A stretch of 41,160 bases of DNA, from assembly GCA_023251775.1 (NCBI GenBank), contig JAHEYC010000027.1, positions 1 through 41,160 on the forward strand, read 5' to 3'. Source of the stretch: Sphingobacteriaceae bacterium (GTDB lineage Bacteria > Bacteroidota > Bacteroidia > B-17B0 > Aurantibacillaceae). Both the position numbers and the translations under genes were made by a program. Shown here in pieces: positions 1 to 5,471 of the stretch; the stretch's first letter is position 1; each line of letters starts with the position of its first letter. The notes under the pieces are model-generated. The model saw only the letters and a program-made list of their open reading frames with translations, made no database searches and was not told the DNA's origin.

Positions 1-30
1 TCTCTTAAGAGAAACGTTGATTTTTTAGGC

Positions 31-273
31 TTATTTAGTGGTGGTTGGCGTTGCCGTAGGATTAACAGCGGGAACAATTTGTCCGCCCGGAACCTGAGCT
101 GCGGCCTGATCCATTGAAGTTTTGATCTGATTAGCAATAGAATCCTGAAATACCTTTGAGCGAGCATACATGGCTTCTCTGTTTTCGGCAGCCGGAGCAC
201 CTCCAAAATAAAGCGCGCATACAATAAGAAATGCAACAATTGAGATACCAAGATATAAGATCGGTTTTTTCAT
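31..273 (-). CDS. Small single-TM membrane protein, unknown function
   Basis: 80-residue protein with a hydrophobic segment at about residues 6-24, then a polar tail rich in Ala, Gln, Pro and Thr ending in a TP/TT-rich stretch. The N-terminus could be an uncleaved anchor or a signal peptide; a Cys sits at residue 19 but a proper lipobox is not convincing. The tail would lie outside the cytoplasm. It follows the Ala-rich lipoprotein gene on the same strand but is separated from it by a terminator, and it has its own candidate promoter: TACTTTTG at 300-293 with TTG at 323-321 (20-base spacer), which overlaps that terminator. I do not recognise a family. That it is a gene is supported by the promoter, the start and the membrane segment. 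Confidence 0.6.
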   Translation of the reverse strand: MKKPILYLGISIVAFLIVCALYFGGAPAAENREAMYARSKVFQDSIANQIKTSMDQAAAQVPGGQIVPAVNPTATPTTTK

Positions 274-292
274 AGGAATGTTTAAAGCCTAG

Positions 293-323
293 CAAAAGTA
301 AACAAAAAACAGAAAAGCCCCAA
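293..323 (-). promoter_or_regulatory. Candidate Bacteroidota promoter for the 80-residue membrane protein
   Basis: On the minus strand TTG (323-321), 20 bases, then TACTTTTG (300-293), matching the TTG...TAnnTTTG consensus. It overlaps the upstream terminator hairpin, so termination and initiation share DNA. Confidence 0.45.
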
Positions 324-344
324 GCAATTTGCTATGGGGCTTTT
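313..344 (-). terminator. Rho-independent terminator after the Ala-rich lipoprotein gene
   Basis: Perfect 9-bp stem AAAAGCCCC / GGGGCTTTT (313-321 with 336-344) around a 14-base loop. On the minus strand it is followed by a T-rich tract, as expected for the gene at 370-594. Confidence 0.85.
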
Positions 345-369
345 AAGCTAACTAACAGTACACAAATTC

Positions 370-594
370 TTAGTGTGCCGGAGCTTCAGCAGTTGTTGCA
401 GTAGTTGCAGCAGTTGAATCAGCAGGAGCAGCTTCAGTAGCAGCAGCTTCGATTGCAGCAGATGCAGCAGCAGCAGCAGAATCTAATGCGCGTTTTGCAT
501 CAGCTTCTAATTTTGCTTTTTCTTCAGCAGAAGGACCGCAAGATACCATTGTAGCAACTAAAGCTACAGCGATGAATGATAATACTTTTTTCAT
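370..594 (-). CDS. Small Ala-rich lipoprotein
   Basis: 74-residue protein with a lipoprotein signal peptide: MKK, a hydrophobic core, and a lipobox ending VSC, so Cys19 would be the lipidated residue. The mature part is about half alanine, with Glu/Lys early (residues 24-36) and Thr/Ser/Pro late. It probably forms a helical or disordered lipid-anchored peptide in the envelope. A strong terminator lies just downstream. It is transcribed divergently from the ECF sigma factor gene and shares with it a bipartite element (GGGTTACCT, 14 bases, TATTAA), so it may belong to that sigma factor's regulon (inference). I do not recognise a family; Ala-rich small lipoproteins of this kind are often abundant envelope proteins. 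Confidence 0.75.
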   Translation of the reverse strand: MKKVLSFIAVALVATMVSCGPSAEEKAKLEADAKRALDSAAAAASAAIEAAATEAAPADSTAATTATTAEAPAH

Positions 595-628
595 TTTTGA
601 GTGTTTTAAATTGTTAATGATTTAGAGA

Positions 629-657
629 TTAATATCTAAAACGGGGGTAGGTAACCC
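629..657 (-). promoter_or_regulatory. Bipartite promoter-like element upstream of the Ala-rich lipoprotein
   Basis: Minus strand GGGTTACCT (657-649), 14 bases, TATTAA (634-629), 34 bases before the start at 594. The element and its spacing match the plus-strand copy at 864-892, and the spacer also shares a TTnTA core directly before the second box. It does not fit the housekeeping TAnnTTTG promoter, which suggests an alternative (ECF) sigma factor. Confidence 0.55.
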
Positions 658-863
658 TAAAAAGATAGAGAAATAACAAATAATACATAACACATTGAAA
701 ATCAACGCAATAAATTTATAAAGGACATTTAAATTATGGAAAAATAAACTCTAAGGCACCTCCTACAATGCGGTAAAACCAAGGAAAAACATCTTAAAAA
801 ACCTCAAAAGCGTTGATACACAAGCAAATTACAGCTTTCAGGTAAAGTATGATACAAAAATTT

Positions 864-892
864 GGGTTACCTTTAACTATTCTAAGTATTAA
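864..892 (+). promoter_or_regulatory. Bipartite promoter-like element upstream of the ECF sigma factor
   Basis: GGGTTACCT (864-872), 14 bases, TATTAA (887-892), 14 bases before the ATG at 907. Identical boxes and spacing occur upstream of the divergent lipoprotein gene. This is consistent with an autoregulated ECF promoter. A housekeeping-like TACCTTTA (868-875) overlaps it and is the main alternative. Confidence 0.55.
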
Positions 893-906
893 AATCAAAG
901 GCGCTA

Positions 907-1485
907 ATGTTAAAACCAAAAGTGAATTTTACCGACAACGATTTTGTTGAAGGATTAAAGGTCGGCGACGACCAGGTTTTAAAAGCGCTTTATAAAAAGT
1001 ACTATAATCTCGTTCTTAAACTTGTTGTAAGTAATAATGGTTCTTCTGAAGCCGCGCAAGATGTATATCAAGAAACGATCATCATCTTGTACGAAAAATG
1101 TCAGGATCCGGAATTCAAATTGAGTTGTCAGCTACAAACCTATGTTTATTCAGTAGCGCGCAATTTATGGTTGAAGCATTTAAAGAAACATGGTAAGACA
1201 GGTGAATTGAAAGAATATCACCAAGATGTTTTTGAAGATGTAAGTTCGGATACTAAAACGCATTTGAAAAAAGAAGAAAGCATTGATAAGGTGTATAAAA
1301 GTTTGGAAGAACTTGGCGAACCTTGCGCATCGTTGATAAAAGATTTCTACATAAAGAAAATGAATATGGAAGACATCTCTGAGAAATTTGGATATACGAA
1401 TGCTGATAATGCCAAGAACCAAAAATACAAATGCCTGCAACGTTTAAAGAGATTATATTTTGACAATTTTACAATAGTAGATTAA
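907..1485 (+). CDS. ECF-type RNA polymerase sigma factor
   Basis: 192-residue sigma-70 family protein of the short extracytoplasmic-function type. Sigma region 2 covers about residues 24-95 (LKALYKKYYN helix, then SEAAQDVYQETIIILYEK and TYVYSVARNLWLKHLKK). A charged linker follows, then region 4 at about 125-185 with its helix-turn-helix (EDISEKFGYTNADNAKNQK, then CLQRLKRL). It directs RNA polymerase to a specific promoter set. Its stop lies 5 bases before the next gene, which carries an anti-sigma-like domain, so this is a sigma/anti-sigma pair. Likely autoregulated through the element at 864-892. The exact ECF group cannot be given by eye. Confidence 0.93.
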   Translation: MLKPKVNFTDNDFVEGLKVGDDQVLKALYKKYYNLVLKLVVSNNGSSEAAQDVYQETIIILYEKCQDPEFKLSCQLQTYVYSVARNLWLKHLKKHGKTGELKEYHQDVFEDVSSDTKTHLKKEESIDKVYKSLEELGEPCASLIKDFYIKKMNMEDISEKFGYTNADNAKNQKYKCLQRLKRLYFDNFTIVD

Positions 1486-1490
1486 AGATA

Positions 1491-2579
1491 ATGAGAACCG
1501 TAGATCTGTTTGATAATTATTTAGAAGGAAAACTCAGTGCACAAGAGTTAGCGGCGTTCGAATTACGCATGAGCAGCGATCCTGTTTTTGAAAAAGCATT
1601 TGAAGAGCACAAAACATTGATCAGCATTTTAAATAGCGGCAACGAACGTCAGGTATTAAAAAATAAACTAAAGCATATTCACTCGGTACAATTCGGAAAA
1701 GAAGCAAAGATCATTTCAATCAACAAGCCCGAGAAACTCACCAAACGTATTGGTAAAACATTTATGGTGGCGGCAAGCGCTGCGGTAATTGCTGTTATCT
1801 CAACTATTGCATTACTAAGTACAGGTGGTTATTTATTAAAGAAACAAGATAGTAAGATCACCGATCTTGGTTTAGAAGTTGCGGGATTAAAATCTTCTCA
1901 GAACGCTATCGTAAGAAAATTAAATTCCAAAGAAGACAAACCATTTGCCGCAGCTAATTTAGAAGGATCGGCATTTGCCTTAAACAATAATGGTTATGTG
2001 ATCACAAGTTGGCATATGGTAAATGGTGCCGATAGCATTTTTATTCAAAACAGTTCTACCGAGCGCGCACTTACAAAAATTATTTTTAATGATCCCGCTT
2101 TAGATATTGCGATCTTAAAAATAGAGAACCCCGCAGTAAGTAAAGGATGGCAAGTACCTTTTACATTCAATTCAAGATCAGCTGAAGTGGGAGAAGAAGT
2201 TTATACTTTAGGTTATCCGCGTCAAGATGTTGTTTACGGCGAAGGTTCTTTAAGTTCACTCACCGGTTATTCAAACGATACAGCCATGTATCAAGTATCA
2301 ATTCCTGTTAACCCGGGAAATAGTGGCGGACCGGTTCTAGATTCACAAGGAAATATAATTGGCGTGATCCGTGGCAAGATCACAACAGCTGAAGGAACAG
2401 GATTTGCCGTTAAATCAACTCAGATCATTCGTTCTATTGCTTCAGTGGAAGGCGATAGTGCAAAATCAGAATTAATAGTGAATAGTACTCGATCATCACT
2501 CAAAAAATTAAAAAGGAGTGAACAAATAAAGCGTATAGATCCATACGTATTTAACGTATTGGTTTATAAAAACAATTAA
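1491..2579 (+). CDS. Anti-sigma-like domain fused via one TM to an HtrA-like trypsin protease
   Basis: 362 residues in three parts. Residues 1-65 resemble the N-terminal domain of Bacteroidota anti-sigma factors (LFDNYLEGKLSAQEL, then a D-P-x-F-E-x-A-F-E helix) without a zinc motif. One TM segment at about 91-116 is followed by a short coiled-coil-like linker. From about 155 a trypsin-like S1C domain carries the full triad: His175 (TSWHMV), Asp205 (DPALDIAIL) and Ser278 (NPGNSGGPV). No PDZ domain is seen; about 50 basic residues follow the protease. Expected topology is anti-sigma domain in the cytoplasm and protease in the periplasm. It probably binds the sigma factor encoded 5 bases upstream and transmits an envelope signal. 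A plain anchored DegP-like protease is the alternative, but the gene pairing argues for regulation. Confidence 0.85.
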   Translation: MRTVDLFDNYLEGKLSAQELAAFELRMSSDPVFEKAFEEHKTLISILNSGNERQVLKNKLKHIHSVQFGKEAKIISINKPEKLTKRIGKTFMVAASAAVIAVISTIALLSTGGYLLKKQDSKITDLGLEVAGLKSSQNAIVRKLNSKEDKPFAAANLEGSAFALNNNGYVITSWHMVNGADSIFIQNSSTERALTKIIFNDPALDIAILKIENPAVSKGWQVPFTFNSRSAEVGEEVYTLGYPRQDVVYGEGSLSSLTGYSNDTAMYQVSIPVNPGNSGGPVLDSQGNIIGVIRGKITTAEGTGFAVKSTQIIRSIASVEGDSAKSELIVNSTRSSLKKLKRSEQIKRIDPYVFNVLVYKNN

Positions 2580-2596
2580 TACCGTTCTAAGAATTT

Positions 2597-2619
2597 ATTT
2601 GTGGAAAAGTTCCGCAAAT
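2597..2619 (+). promoter_or_regulatory. Compact hairpin between protease and DUF4349 genes
   Basis: 10-bp stem (2597-2606 with 2610-2619, one G-T wobble) closed by a 3-base loop. No T-tract follows, so it is unlikely to be a simple terminator. It may stabilise or process the message, or tune expression of the third gene. Confidence 0.35.
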
Positions 2620-2658
2620 AGCATCTGTACTTAAACACAAAACCTTAACATTTTATTT

Positions 2659-3657
2659 ATGAAAACCATTAGCAAAATTTACTTGCTTGGGCTTGTTATT
2701 GCCCTAACGCAAGCGTGCAGCGACGGAAAAAGCTACAAAGAAGATTCATCAAAAGAAAGCATAATGTCTTCACCGATGAACATGGAACAATCCAAAGATG
2801 AAGAAGGATACGTTGGAGGAAACGCATTAGCGGATAGCATTAGCGGTCCTTCAGATAAAAAAAACGATGAGAAAATGAATTTCGTGAACTCGTCCGCTTC
2901 GCGCATTGGAAAAATTGATTCCATCAAAAAATTCATTCGCACTGCCGATATAAAATTCAAAGTGAAGAATGTAGAGAAGAGTACGTATAAGATCGAGGAC
3001 ATCATCAATCATTTTGATGGCTTTGTGATCAATACCAATTTGAATTGTCGCGTAAATTATACTGAATCATTTCGCGTAAAAGAAGATTCAGTTTTGGAAC
3101 GCAAACATTTTGTGGTTGAGAACAGCATCACCTTCCGTGTTCCAAAATCTCTTTTAGACACAACCCTCAAACAAATTGTTTCGCAAATTGATTTTTTGGA
3201 TCATCGCATCATTACCGCCGAAGATGTAAGTTTTGCCGCACTTAAAAATCAAATGCATCAAAAACGTTTTGGTCGCTACCAAAAAAGGATTACGCAAGCA
3301 ACCGATAAGTCGAACAAAACAAATGCAGTTGTAAATGCCGAAAATGGTTTGTACGAAAAAGAAGGCGAAGCTGATGAAAGCGAATTGAATGATAGAATAT
3401 TAAATGATAAAGTAGATTACGCAACTGTAACCATGTATATTTACCAAGATGAAAAAGTAAGGAACGATGTTGTTTTTTCGCAACCACATTTTGATTCGTA
3501 TCAACCATCTTTTGGAAGTGAGTTTGTAAGCAGCATAAAATTCGGTTGGAATATCATACAACAATTGTTTTTGCTAATGGTAAAATTATGGCCGTTGATC
3601 TTAATAGGCGTTGGTTTGTTTTATGGTATCAGACGTTTGGTGAAGGGAAAAGCGTAA
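2659..3657 (+). CDS. DUF4349 domain lipoprotein
   Basis: 332 residues. Lipoprotein signal with lipobox ending TQAC (Cys20), a Ser/Asp/Lys-rich linker to about residue 90, then the DUF4349 core beginning FIRTADIKFKVKNVEKSTYKIE, and a C-terminal TM segment at about 300-325 followed by a basic tail. With both a lipid anchor and a C-terminal TM helix, the core sits in the periplasm. DUF4349 has no settled biochemical role known to me. It lies 79 bases after the anti-sigma/protease gene on the same strand and may be a third component of that circuit (inference). Residues 225-245 form a Glu/Asp-rich insertion before the last conserved beta strand. Confidence 0.85.
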   Translation: MKTISKIYLLGLVIALTQACSDGKSYKEDSSKESIMSSPMNMEQSKDEEGYVGGNALADSISGPSDKKNDEKMNFVNSSASRIGKIDSIKKFIRTADIKFKVKNVEKSTYKIEDIINHFDGFVINTNLNCRVNYTESFRVKEDSVLERKHFVVENSITFRVPKSLLDTTLKQIVSQIDFLDHRIITAEDVSFAALKNQMHQKRFGRYQKRITQATDKSNKTNAVVNAENGLYEKEGEADESELNDRILNDKVDYATVTMYIYQDEKVRNDVVFSQPHFDSYQPSFGSEFVSSIKFGWNIIQQLFLLMVKLWPLILIGVGLFYGIRRLVKGKA

Positions 3658-3663
3658 TTTGTA

Positions 3664-3820
3664 AGTCCCGTAGGGACTACATATTGGTAAAAACCCAAAT
3701 GAAAGGGAAAAAGAAATCCCGTAGGGATGACATGTTACATGTCGCCCCTACGGGGCTTTAACGATCATAATAAATTATGATCTACCGATATGCCGTCCCT
3801 ACGGGACTATTTATCGGCAT
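3664..3820. repeat. Palindromic REP-like repeat cluster (TCCCGTAGGGA family)
   Basis: Copies of a short palindrome: AGTCCCGTAGGGACT (3664-3678), TCCCGTAGGGA (3717-3727), GCCCCTACGGGGC (3744-3756) and GTCCCTACGGGAC (3795-3807). The second and third copies pair into a 17-bp stem with two mismatches (3718-3734 with 3738-3754). The last copy is bracketed by ATGCCG (3790-3795) and CGGCAT (3815-3820) and includes the comF stop codon. It fills the gap between convergent genes and may act as a two-way terminator. Confidence 0.8.
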
Positions 3821-4496
3821 ACGCAATTGTTGCAACCGAAATGTGAATTCCCTCCACATCTTTTAACGCTTGCCAAACTCCTTCAACAGTTGATCCTGTG
3901 GTGATCACATCATCTACCAATAAAATATGTTCGTTCTTAAAAGTTTCAACATTACTCAAAGCAAACACATCTTTTACATTTTCCCATCGCTCGTATTTTC
4001 GTTTTTTGGTTTGTGTTGAGGTTTCCAGTTCGCGAATGAGCGTGGTTGTATCTAAAGCAATTCCGCTTGTTTCCGAAATTCCTTTTGCAAAGCATTCGCT
4101 TTGATTATAACCGCGCGAGGCTTGTTTCTTTTTATGCAAAGGAACCGGAACAATATAATTTATGCCTTCAAAAAAAGAGGTGGTCTTAAGATCATTATAA
4201 AATGTATTGCCCATCAACACACCAATGTTCTGCTGGTTCTCGTATTTTAAAGAATGTAATAGATTTTGAACTTTACCGTCTTTTTCAAAAAGGAACAAAC
4301 TAGTGGCTTGTTGTAAAGGAACCCTGCCGCCAAGGGCCATAATAATAGGATTTGTGTTATTTAAATGAAAATTACTCTTTGGCAAACTCAACACACATTT
4401 ATTACAAACCACCCGCTCGTGCTTATACAGCAGGCCTTCGCAGGCCTCGCAATAGCGGGGGTAAATTAATGACATGAAATCGTTAATAAGTGTCAT
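3807..4496 (-). CDS. comF: ComF family phosphoribosyltransferase-like protein
   Basis: 229 residues, the usual length for ComF/GntX-like proteins. The N-terminal zinc ribbon shows Cys16/Cys19 and Cys31/Cys34 (CxxC...CxxC). The C-terminal part is a type I phosphoribosyltransferase fold with the PRPP-binding motif LLVDDVITTGST at 192-203; VPVPLHKKKQASRGYNQS at 116-133 is typical of the family. ComF takes part in DNA uptake in competent bacteria, but in Bacteroidota its role is not established. Transcribed divergently from the coiled-coil protein gene. The stop codon and last codons lie inside the palindromic repeat cluster. Confidence 0.92.
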   Translation of the reverse strand: MTLINDFMSLIYPRYCEACEGLLYKHERVVCNKCVLSLPKSNFHLNNTNPIIMALGGRVPLQQATSLFLFEKDGKVQNLLHSLKYENQQNIGVLMGNTFYNDLKTTSFFEGINYIVPVPLHKKKQASRGYNQSECFAKGISETSGIALDTTTLIRELETSTQTKKRKYERWENVKDVFALSNVETFKNEHILLVDDVITTGSTVEGVWQALKDVEGIHISVATIAYADK

Positions 4497-4550
4497 ACGC
4501 CGTATCGAAAATAGTATAAATAGTTATTAATTTTACAGTAAATTATTAAA

Positions 4551-5471
4551 ATGAATCAGGAAGACTCTAAATCAAAGAAGAAGAGGGGTATTTTTTTATG
4601 GATCATTATTTTCCTTTTGATGGGATCTAATGCGGTTTTGGTTTGGTTATATCTTCAAGAGAAAAACAAGCTTGCCGAAAAAATAATAGAAATAAAAACT
4701 ATTTACGTTGAAAAGGAAACCATTGAATTGGATCTTGCCACACTGAAAAAAGATTATGAAGGTTTGCAAACAAACAATAAAGCCATACAGGCCGATATTG
4801 AATTGAAGAAAGCACGCATTGAAGAATTAATGATAGAAGCAAAAAAGCACAAGGGCGATGCGTATTTTATTGCAAAACTTAAAAAGGAAACCGAAACTCT
4901 TCGCGCCATCATGCAACATTATGTTGTGACGATCGATTCGTTGAATACATTAAATCAAAAGTTGGTTGTAGAAAAGAAAAATGTGCTCAAACAATTAAAT
5001 GAGGAGAAAGAAAAAGGAAATAAACTCAACGAAGAGAAAGAAGAACTAAAGAACACTATCGCTAAAGGAAGCATTCTTACATGCTTTAACGTTACAGCAA
5101 AAGGGGTTTACTTTAAAAAAGGCGGCAAAAAAGAAGTGGAAACAAGTAAGGCGCGCAAGGCCAAAAAAATAAAAATTGGCTTTAGTCTGGGCGAAAATAA
5201 AATTGCAAAAGCCGGCGAAAAAACGGTTTATATTCGCATTATGACCCCCGACGGAAAGGAAATGGCCAAAAGTTACGATGATAGCTACAAGTTTGTTTTT
5301 AACAAAAGCAATGGCTATTTCGCAGGAAAAGAAACAGTTAACTATGGCAATGTAGAGCTAAGCGCGGTTACCTACTGCGAAGGCCAAGGCGATATGGTGC
5401 CGGGAAATTATATTATCGAGATCAGTTGCGACGGGGCTTTGATAGGGAATACGAATCTGAAATTGGACTAA
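4551..5471 (+). CDS. Single-TM coiled-coil membrane protein, unknown function
   Basis: 306 residues. A Lys/Arg-rich start (SKKKRG) precedes one TM helix at about 14-35, so the rest should be periplasmic. A long Glu/Lys-rich coiled coil runs from about 36 to 170, followed by a compact beta-rich C-terminal domain with a hydrophobic pattern ([27 protein letters not shown]). The architecture suits a structural or tethering role in the envelope, but I do not recognise a named family. It stands alone between comF (divergent) and gcvT (same strand, 97 bases on). Confidence 0.8.

Follow-up and report, generated by a model that had tools for sequence, protein, structure and literature searches.

An anti-sigma-like domain and a trypsin-like protease in one membrane protein encoded behind an extracytoplasmic function sigma factor gene in Bacteroidota: a candidate envelope-stress switch

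Can an anti-sigma factor carry the protease that opens its own release pathway? PMC7593790 describes regulated intramembrane proteolysis as a periplasmic site-1 cut and a membrane site-2 cut, of which the former is made in Escherichia coli by DegS, a separate protein that senses and cuts first; in the best-known pathways that it covers, the site-1 protease is a different protein from the anti-sigma factor. The question is raised by a locus in a 41,160-nucleotide stretch from a Sphingobacteriaceae bacterium (contig JAHEYC010000027.1, the whole of which is called the window here), where an extracytoplasmic function (ECF) sigma factor gene (907..1485, + strand, 192 amino acids) is followed by a gene for a 362-residue protein with one membrane helix (1491..2579, + strand). 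A sequence-only reading had placed the two open reading frames (ORFs) 5 bases apart and had seen in the second an N-terminal domain, a membrane helix and a trypsin domain in one chain; the coordinates proved exact and the domain order was confirmed, with the helix at about residues 91-112. We lean towards the view that the pair is a self-contained envelope-stress switch, in which the anti-sigma factor would carry its own site-1 protease. The self-cleavage and the signal are what we infer from sequence.

The sigma factor scores 66.2 bits against the ECF superfamily model TIGR02937, whose curated cut-off is 42.9 bits. Pfam recognizes its region 2 (Sigma70_r2, E 1e-10) and gives no match to region 4 in the window protein, and a comparison with PDB chains matched AlgU (6in7_B, E 4e-5). 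In the fused protein, a Trypsin_2 match covers residues 159-292 (E 3e-23) of a trypsin-like domain at residues 159-320 (1965..2450, + strand). The predicted triad, His175 (2013-2015), Asp205 (2103-2105) and Ser278 (2322-2324), is intact not only here; the same residues are aligned in 247/247 unique fused proteins, so that catalysis must be under selection, and G276 and G279 are likewise invariant. The best fold matches of the protease are Deg1, MucD and DegS-deltaPDZ, and the Rv3671c structure 3k6z is found among the matches. It scores below the cut-offs of both the DegS equivalog model (55.1 versus 422.95 bits) and its best NCBIfam match, the MarP model NF033740 (87.2 versus 250 bits). No PDZ domain was matched in the fused protein at E<=1. 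At the place of the HtrA PDZ domain, residues ~341-359 (2511..2567, + strand) form a helix and a strand in the model, and the columns of this C-terminal tail are conserved, with a mean information of 2.74 bits versus 2.63 bits for the protease.

The membrane helix (residues ~91-112, 1761..1826, + strand) was placed by the best 19-residue hydrophobic stretch, which starts at residue 91, and its A94 and A95 are invariant in 247/247 proteins. Between the helix and the protease, residues 123-144 (1857..1922, + strand) show the heptad pattern I123, L126, V130, L133, Q137, I140 and L144, from which a coiled-coil stalk is predicted. The A95-to-G159 distance is narrowly distributed, with a mean of 65 residues, a standard deviation of 3.3 and a range of 53-80. 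The same genome encodes an RseP-like M50 protease with a PDZ domain, so that a single-pass anti-sigma-like protein and a site-2 protease candidate are both present. Its single other Trypsin_2 protein is DegP-like, with PDZ domains.

Residues 1-70 (1491..1700, + strand) are modelled as three confident helices (3-12, 17-29 and 31-68). A Foldseek search of 350,542 PDB chains with the residue 1-115 model reported 13 chains at E<=10, and nine of them, including ranks 1-8, belong to anti-sigma/sigma entries, each weak alone (E >2): RsiW (5wuq), MucA (8z6g and 6in7), RslA (3hug) and the SigK partner (4nqw). The matched chains in these entries were taken as the anti-sigma chains from their length and residue numbers. 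Realignment of the candidates gave a Z score of 6.2 for RsiW (root-mean-square deviation 4.7 over 68 residues) and ranked six further anti-sigma entries above unrelated rows. Among the 18,950 NCBIfam models, the anti-sigma model NF052375 is matched by most N-terminal regions of the family (41/58 at E<=0.5, best 3e-7). In Pfam, 23 N-terminal regions gave a single zf-HC2 match (E 0.0019) and otherwise noise. Residues 1-70 very probably form an anti-sigma domain, judging by their fold, the weak profile matches, the adjacency to a sigma gene and the coevolution described below.

Coevolution between the two proteins was examined by mean-field coupling analysis of 247 unique sigma/fusion pairs. A first run showed a modest enrichment of the anti-sigma domain, which took part in 7 of the top 20 couplings versus ~4 expected. 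Columns of the anti-sigma domain couple to the sigma factor more strongly than do protease columns taken from the same chains and matched in entropy (0/400 draws reach the observed value). Furthermore, none of 40 re-pairings of sigma factors within clades came up to the true pairing, whether the top 1, 5, 10 or 20 couplings are compared, and re-pairing removes most of the strength from 4/5 leading pairs. The leading couplings join sigma residue 133 to L47 in helix 3 (the strongest), 59 to H64, 153 to residue 7 and 58 to E19. A class I anti-sigma domain touches sigma2 through helix 4 and sigma4 through helices 1 and 3. Alignments to solved ECF factors put sigma 133 at an estimated RpoE position of 134-135, around which PMC7406223 lists contacts between sigma4.1 and helix 3; the top pair resembles a sigma4.1/helix 3 contact. 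Sigma 153 belongs to region 4 and is a few residues away from the sigma4.2/helix 1 contacts listed there. Couplings between stalk and protease inside the fused chain were too noisy for use. The coevolution favours a contact between the anti-sigma domain and the sigma factor and, given the small number of sequences, counts as support and not as proof.

Several observations weigh against the switch or against the assignments on which it is built. The couplings rest on ~184 effective sequences. The sigma 59/H64 coupling, which is the sigma2/helix 4 pair, is not pairing-specific, being equally strong after re-pairing (observed 1.61; null mean 0.90, maximum 1.99), and may reflect clades only. Sigma 58 corresponds to about RpoE 54, a sigma2.2 contact in PMC7406223, but the contacts given there do not include the helix 2 residue E19 with which it couples. 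The fold matches of the N-terminus are individually weak, and a Z score below 8 can mean merely a shared helix arrangement. The window protein falls far under the NF052375 cut-off (14.3 versus 100 bits), and its N-terminus has no Pfam anti-sigma match. When its sequence profile was compared with the PDB (143 rows at E<=5), anti-sigma factors were absent from the best 60 rows and the best row was a ribosomal protein (E 0.027). The structural model has low confidence in the stalk and the membrane part, and a membrane-to-protease stalk of ~65 residues may be too short for cleavage in cis. Finally, relaxed forms of the promoter-like pattern discussed below do not exceed their controls in the own genome, neither with two mismatches (218 hits versus 490 in the reversed control) nor as the GTATWAA form (1 hit versus 3).

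The silence of Pfam and of the best 60 profile rows would be expected if the N-terminus were no anti-sigma domain and the two genes shared an operon only. We consider this very improbable, because fold, NCBIfam, adjacency and coevolution all point the other way. Collectively, the earlier proposal of an anti-sigma-like N-terminus is supported by the Foldseek chains and the re-pairing result. The lack of a predicted contact with the sigma factor would have refuted that proposal; coevolution, by which this point was assessed, supports a contact through the top couplings, which exceed all 40 re-pairings, but not through the 59/H64 pair.

The sequence-only reading would also have been undermined by a fused protease found widely without a neighbouring sigma gene, and this is not the case: a sigma gene lies directly upstream in 310/312 fusion loci (over 200 bits, from searches that partly overlap), and in the remaining two, L117 and L190, the sequence stops ~115 bases upstream. 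The gap between the genes ranges from -98 to 220 bases, with 245/247 unique pairs within -60 to 100. Among 60 genomes around that of the window, its own included, 39 encode the full-length fusion, namely all 37 of the genus and two of other families. In two other families, 135/151 and 137/146 genomes have one match each, with partial rows among them (G797, G798, G852 and G931); the former family includes Pedobacter, Olivibacter and Solitalea, as deduced from identical promoter-like sites. A named collection contains 471 stretches coding for relatives of the query; the best 80 of the 471 were analysed and include some from Pedobacter, Olivibacter, Solitalea, Daejeonella, Pontibacter and Adhaeribacter. 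An even sample of the phylum gave matches at E<=1e-45 in 35/395 genomes, 29 in the class, two of which align only from position 33 or 40 on, and six outside it. The six outside align to the protease only; L171 and L173 are fused, but align only from profile position ~33-41 on. Far from being a rarity, the fusion occurs in single copy in nearly all genomes sampled from several Bacteroidota families. In the nearest relative (L004/L046, fusion 86% identical), the fusion is uninterrupted but the sigma gene is broken into two overlapping frames; the split is probably an assembly or sequencing frameshift of a metagenome bin and possibly real.

A promoter-like site, GGTTAC-N15-GTATTAA, precedes the sigma/fusion operon (865..892, + strand), and a second, GGTTAC-N15-ATATTAA, precedes a divergent gene (629..656, - strand); both are pattern matches. 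The pattern GGTTACN{15,16}RTATTAA occurs in the own genome exactly at these two places, with 0 hits in the reversed control. Its R was set after both window sites were known, so that the informative points are the lack of a third genome hit and the recurrence of the same layout elsewhere. A near-strict site lies 5' of the sigma gene in 212/247 pairs, with a spacing of 15 in 182. After 28 pairs with short or duplicate upstream sequence were set aside, 219 loci remained, of which 199 have the sigma site, 139 a facing site (counted by a pattern with G in the last element instead of R) and 129 both, compared to 0/219 in the reversed control. In loci such as L159-L164, the earliest start codon available to the sigma gene (GTG/TTG) lies 0-3 bases after GTATTAA, and the sigma message would be nearly leaderless if that start were used.

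The divergent gene (370..594, - strand) encodes a small low-complexity lipoprotein of 74 amino acids with a putative lipobox (..MVSC-G), which is probably disordered and is rich in Ala, Thr, Ser, Asp and Val. Small, repeat-rich divergent lipoprotein ORFs of this kind recur, one ORF cluster occurring in 38/80 loci (69 ORFs). A lipobox-like ORF lies behind the facing site in 108 of the 139 loci, with a median of 66.5 residues and a composition rich in Ala, Thr, Ser and Asp. Directly 3' of the fusion gene lies a DUF4349 lipoprotein gene (2659..3657, + strand; PF14257, E 1e-19), which has no strict site of its own in the window. Beyond the two locus sites, the own genome gives no signal of a wider regulon, since the relaxed hits remain below control. 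Across related genomes, the strict pattern GGTTACN{15,16}GTATWAA exceeds its control, with 112 sites versus 64 in 38 genomes of the genus, 79 versus 26 in 25 genomes of family f41 and 77 versus 36 in 24 genomes of family f36; given these control counts, many single strict sites are due to chance. Among 20 chosen sites of the genus, 10 precede DUF4349 ORFs, mostly at ~17-33 bases 5' of the start codon; nine of these ORFs are above the Pfam cut-off and one, the 142-residue frame in L416, is below it. The others precede a coiled-coil lipoprotein (three), a DUF2459 gene (one) and a DUF4294 gene (one), lie inside an ORF (one) or have no clear gene (L407, L412, L413 and L419). The candidate core regulon comprises the operon, the small lipoprotein and the DUF4349 lipoprotein, and autoregulation of the operon is predicted; the attribution of the sites to this sigma factor is suggested by their position and co-occurrence. 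With a predicted promoter and few candidate target genes, the system lends itself to direct tests in harmless bacteria of soil and water.

The position of the protease in an operon behind a promoter-like site could also mean that it is mainly an effector, a membrane-anchored quality-control enzyme whose amount the sigma factor adjusts by feedback, the anti-sigma domain serving only to close the loop. Three stand-alone protease relatives (L043, L044 and L045), which carry similar C-terminal tails and show no sigma relative within the fetched stretch, are consistent with such a role. However, families that keep the protease also keep the anti-sigma domain, the membrane helix and the length of the stalk, none of which an unconnected effector would need, and we judge this explanation distinctly improbable.

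In the switch that we favour, residues 1-70 would keep the sigma factor at the membrane at rest, while the protease domains of an oligomer would be carried on coiled-coil stalks. The protease would be activated by envelope stress, most likely a faulty delivery of lipoproteins or outer-membrane proteins; the choice of lipoprotein/outer-membrane homeostasis as the sensed condition is suggested by the lipoprotein-rich output. The protease would then cut a stalk within its own complex, either that of another protomer (in trans) or the one that carries it (in cis), which would constitute site-1 cleavage. An RseP-like protease would subsequently cut the membrane helix and free the sigma factor, which would raise expression of its own operon and of the lipoproteins. 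Sensor, site-1 protease and anti-sigma factor would thereby be a single polypeptide.

It is also conceivable that the protease domain acts as a substrate sensor and leaves its own chain uncut. Its shape would change when it binds or cleaves misfolded envelope proteins, and this change, passed on through stalk and helix, would free the sigma factor; in a variant, the stalk would be exposed to another protease such as a DegP-like protein or signal peptidase. Precedent exists in other anti-sigma factors such as RsiV, in which the periplasmic part is the sensor and the cut is made by a separate protease, as described in PMC7593790, and the own genome does encode a separate DegP-like PDZ protease. 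Moreover, the same N-terminal module carries TPR, PKD/CHU_C, PPIase or unassigned C-termini, with a sigma gene upstream in 20/20 chosen cases, suggesting that the place of the protease is generally a sensor slot. The retention of the triad in 247/247 proteins argues that activity is needed and not binding alone, and for this reason we regard sensing without self-cleavage as possible but doubtful.

The evidence for that slot comes from a search with the N-terminal profile, which matches 132/295 genomes of the class. For 20 matches chosen for a differing C-terminus, a sigma-like gene lies directly upstream in all 20, one of them weak (23 bits). Ten of these proteins were scanned for C-terminal domains: three have TPR (one below the cut-off), one PKD with a CHU_C signal, one PPIase, one a weak CHU_C match and four nothing convincing, and a protease domain was found in none of the 10. 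Four very large proteins of 762-814 amino acids (L336, L337, L338 and L339) have the module and are encoded directly 3' of a sigma gene; one has a PPIase domain and three have no convincing Pfam domain. One genome with 10 matches to the module (G037) contains a sigma gene paired with a protease-less protein of the N-terminal family (L042/L139), with the related upstream element GTCACCCTTT, so that sigma paralogues may differ in their type of promoter. According to PMC7406223, a class I anti-sigma factor is encoded next to only 6% of the ECF sigma factors of Bacteroidetes, and it is asked there whether synteny is broken or other modes are dominant in this group. Our data suggest a further, partial answer: a divergent but structurally ordinary anti-sigma module, missed or under-scored by curated profiles, sits right behind the sigma gene and carries varied sensor domains.

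Compared to known systems, the locus is closest to RpoE/RseA/DegS/RseP of E. coli and AlgU/MucA/AlgW, with which it shares an ECF sigma factor, a single-pass anti-sigma protein with a class I-like fold, an HtrA-type protease fold and an RseP-like site-2 protease in the genome. It differs from them in having the anti-sigma factor and the protease in one chain without a PDZ domain, and in the GGTTAC-N15-GTATTAA site and the candidate lipoprotein regulon. No MucB/RseB match was found by Pfam in the three neighbouring proteins scanned. MarP, a membrane-anchored serine protease of mycobacteria, has a PDZ-less trypsin fold as well, whereas the fused protease scores below the MarP cut-off; MarP has several membrane helices and is not known to carry an anti-sigma domain. 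RsgI cleaves itself through a spontaneous break of the backbone within a small domain. The protein here resembles RsgI as an anti-sigma factor with predicted release by RseP and differs from it by a complete fused serine protease domain. Release of RsgI of Clostridium thermocellum from the membrane by RseP is described in PMC12203970, where autoproteolysis is mentioned. The other Bacteroidota proteins with the N-terminal module share the module and the upstream sigma gene and end in TPR, PKD/CHU_C, PPIase or unassigned regions. Searches of open-licence papers gave no title or abstract opening that describes an anti-sigma/protease fusion. The fusion system is a widespread variant of the RseA/DegS kind of pathway, new in that it joins a site-1 protease candidate and an anti-sigma factor in one chain, and it is present in the majority of the genomes sampled from three Bacteroidota families.

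A more specific form of the switch would include the small lipoprotein as a substrate or ligand of the fused protease, making the three genes a gauge of lipoprotein delivery. A small lipoprotein that fails to leave the inner membrane would meet the tethered protease and be cut, and this cutting would either compete with the cutting of the stalk, as a feedback, or trigger it. One polypeptide would in this way read the export of a product of its own regulon. We hold this extension to be rather unlikely.

The small lipoprotein gene is followed, in the same orientation, by a second small gene (31-273, - strand), which encodes 80 amino acids with a hydrophobic N-terminus and an Ala/Gln-rich tail; the small lipoprotein cluster of other loci comprises more than one ORF at a locus. 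Scans of positions 1-4600 for sigma-70-type promoters and terminators gave nothing above shuffles. Between the DUF4349 gene and the gene that follows it (3807-4496, putatively ComF-like), two exact copies of GTCCCTACGGGAC occur in opposite orientation at 3665-3677 and 3795-3807, with a near copy at 3716-3728, where shuffles expect 0.00; these copies look like a small interspersed repeat.

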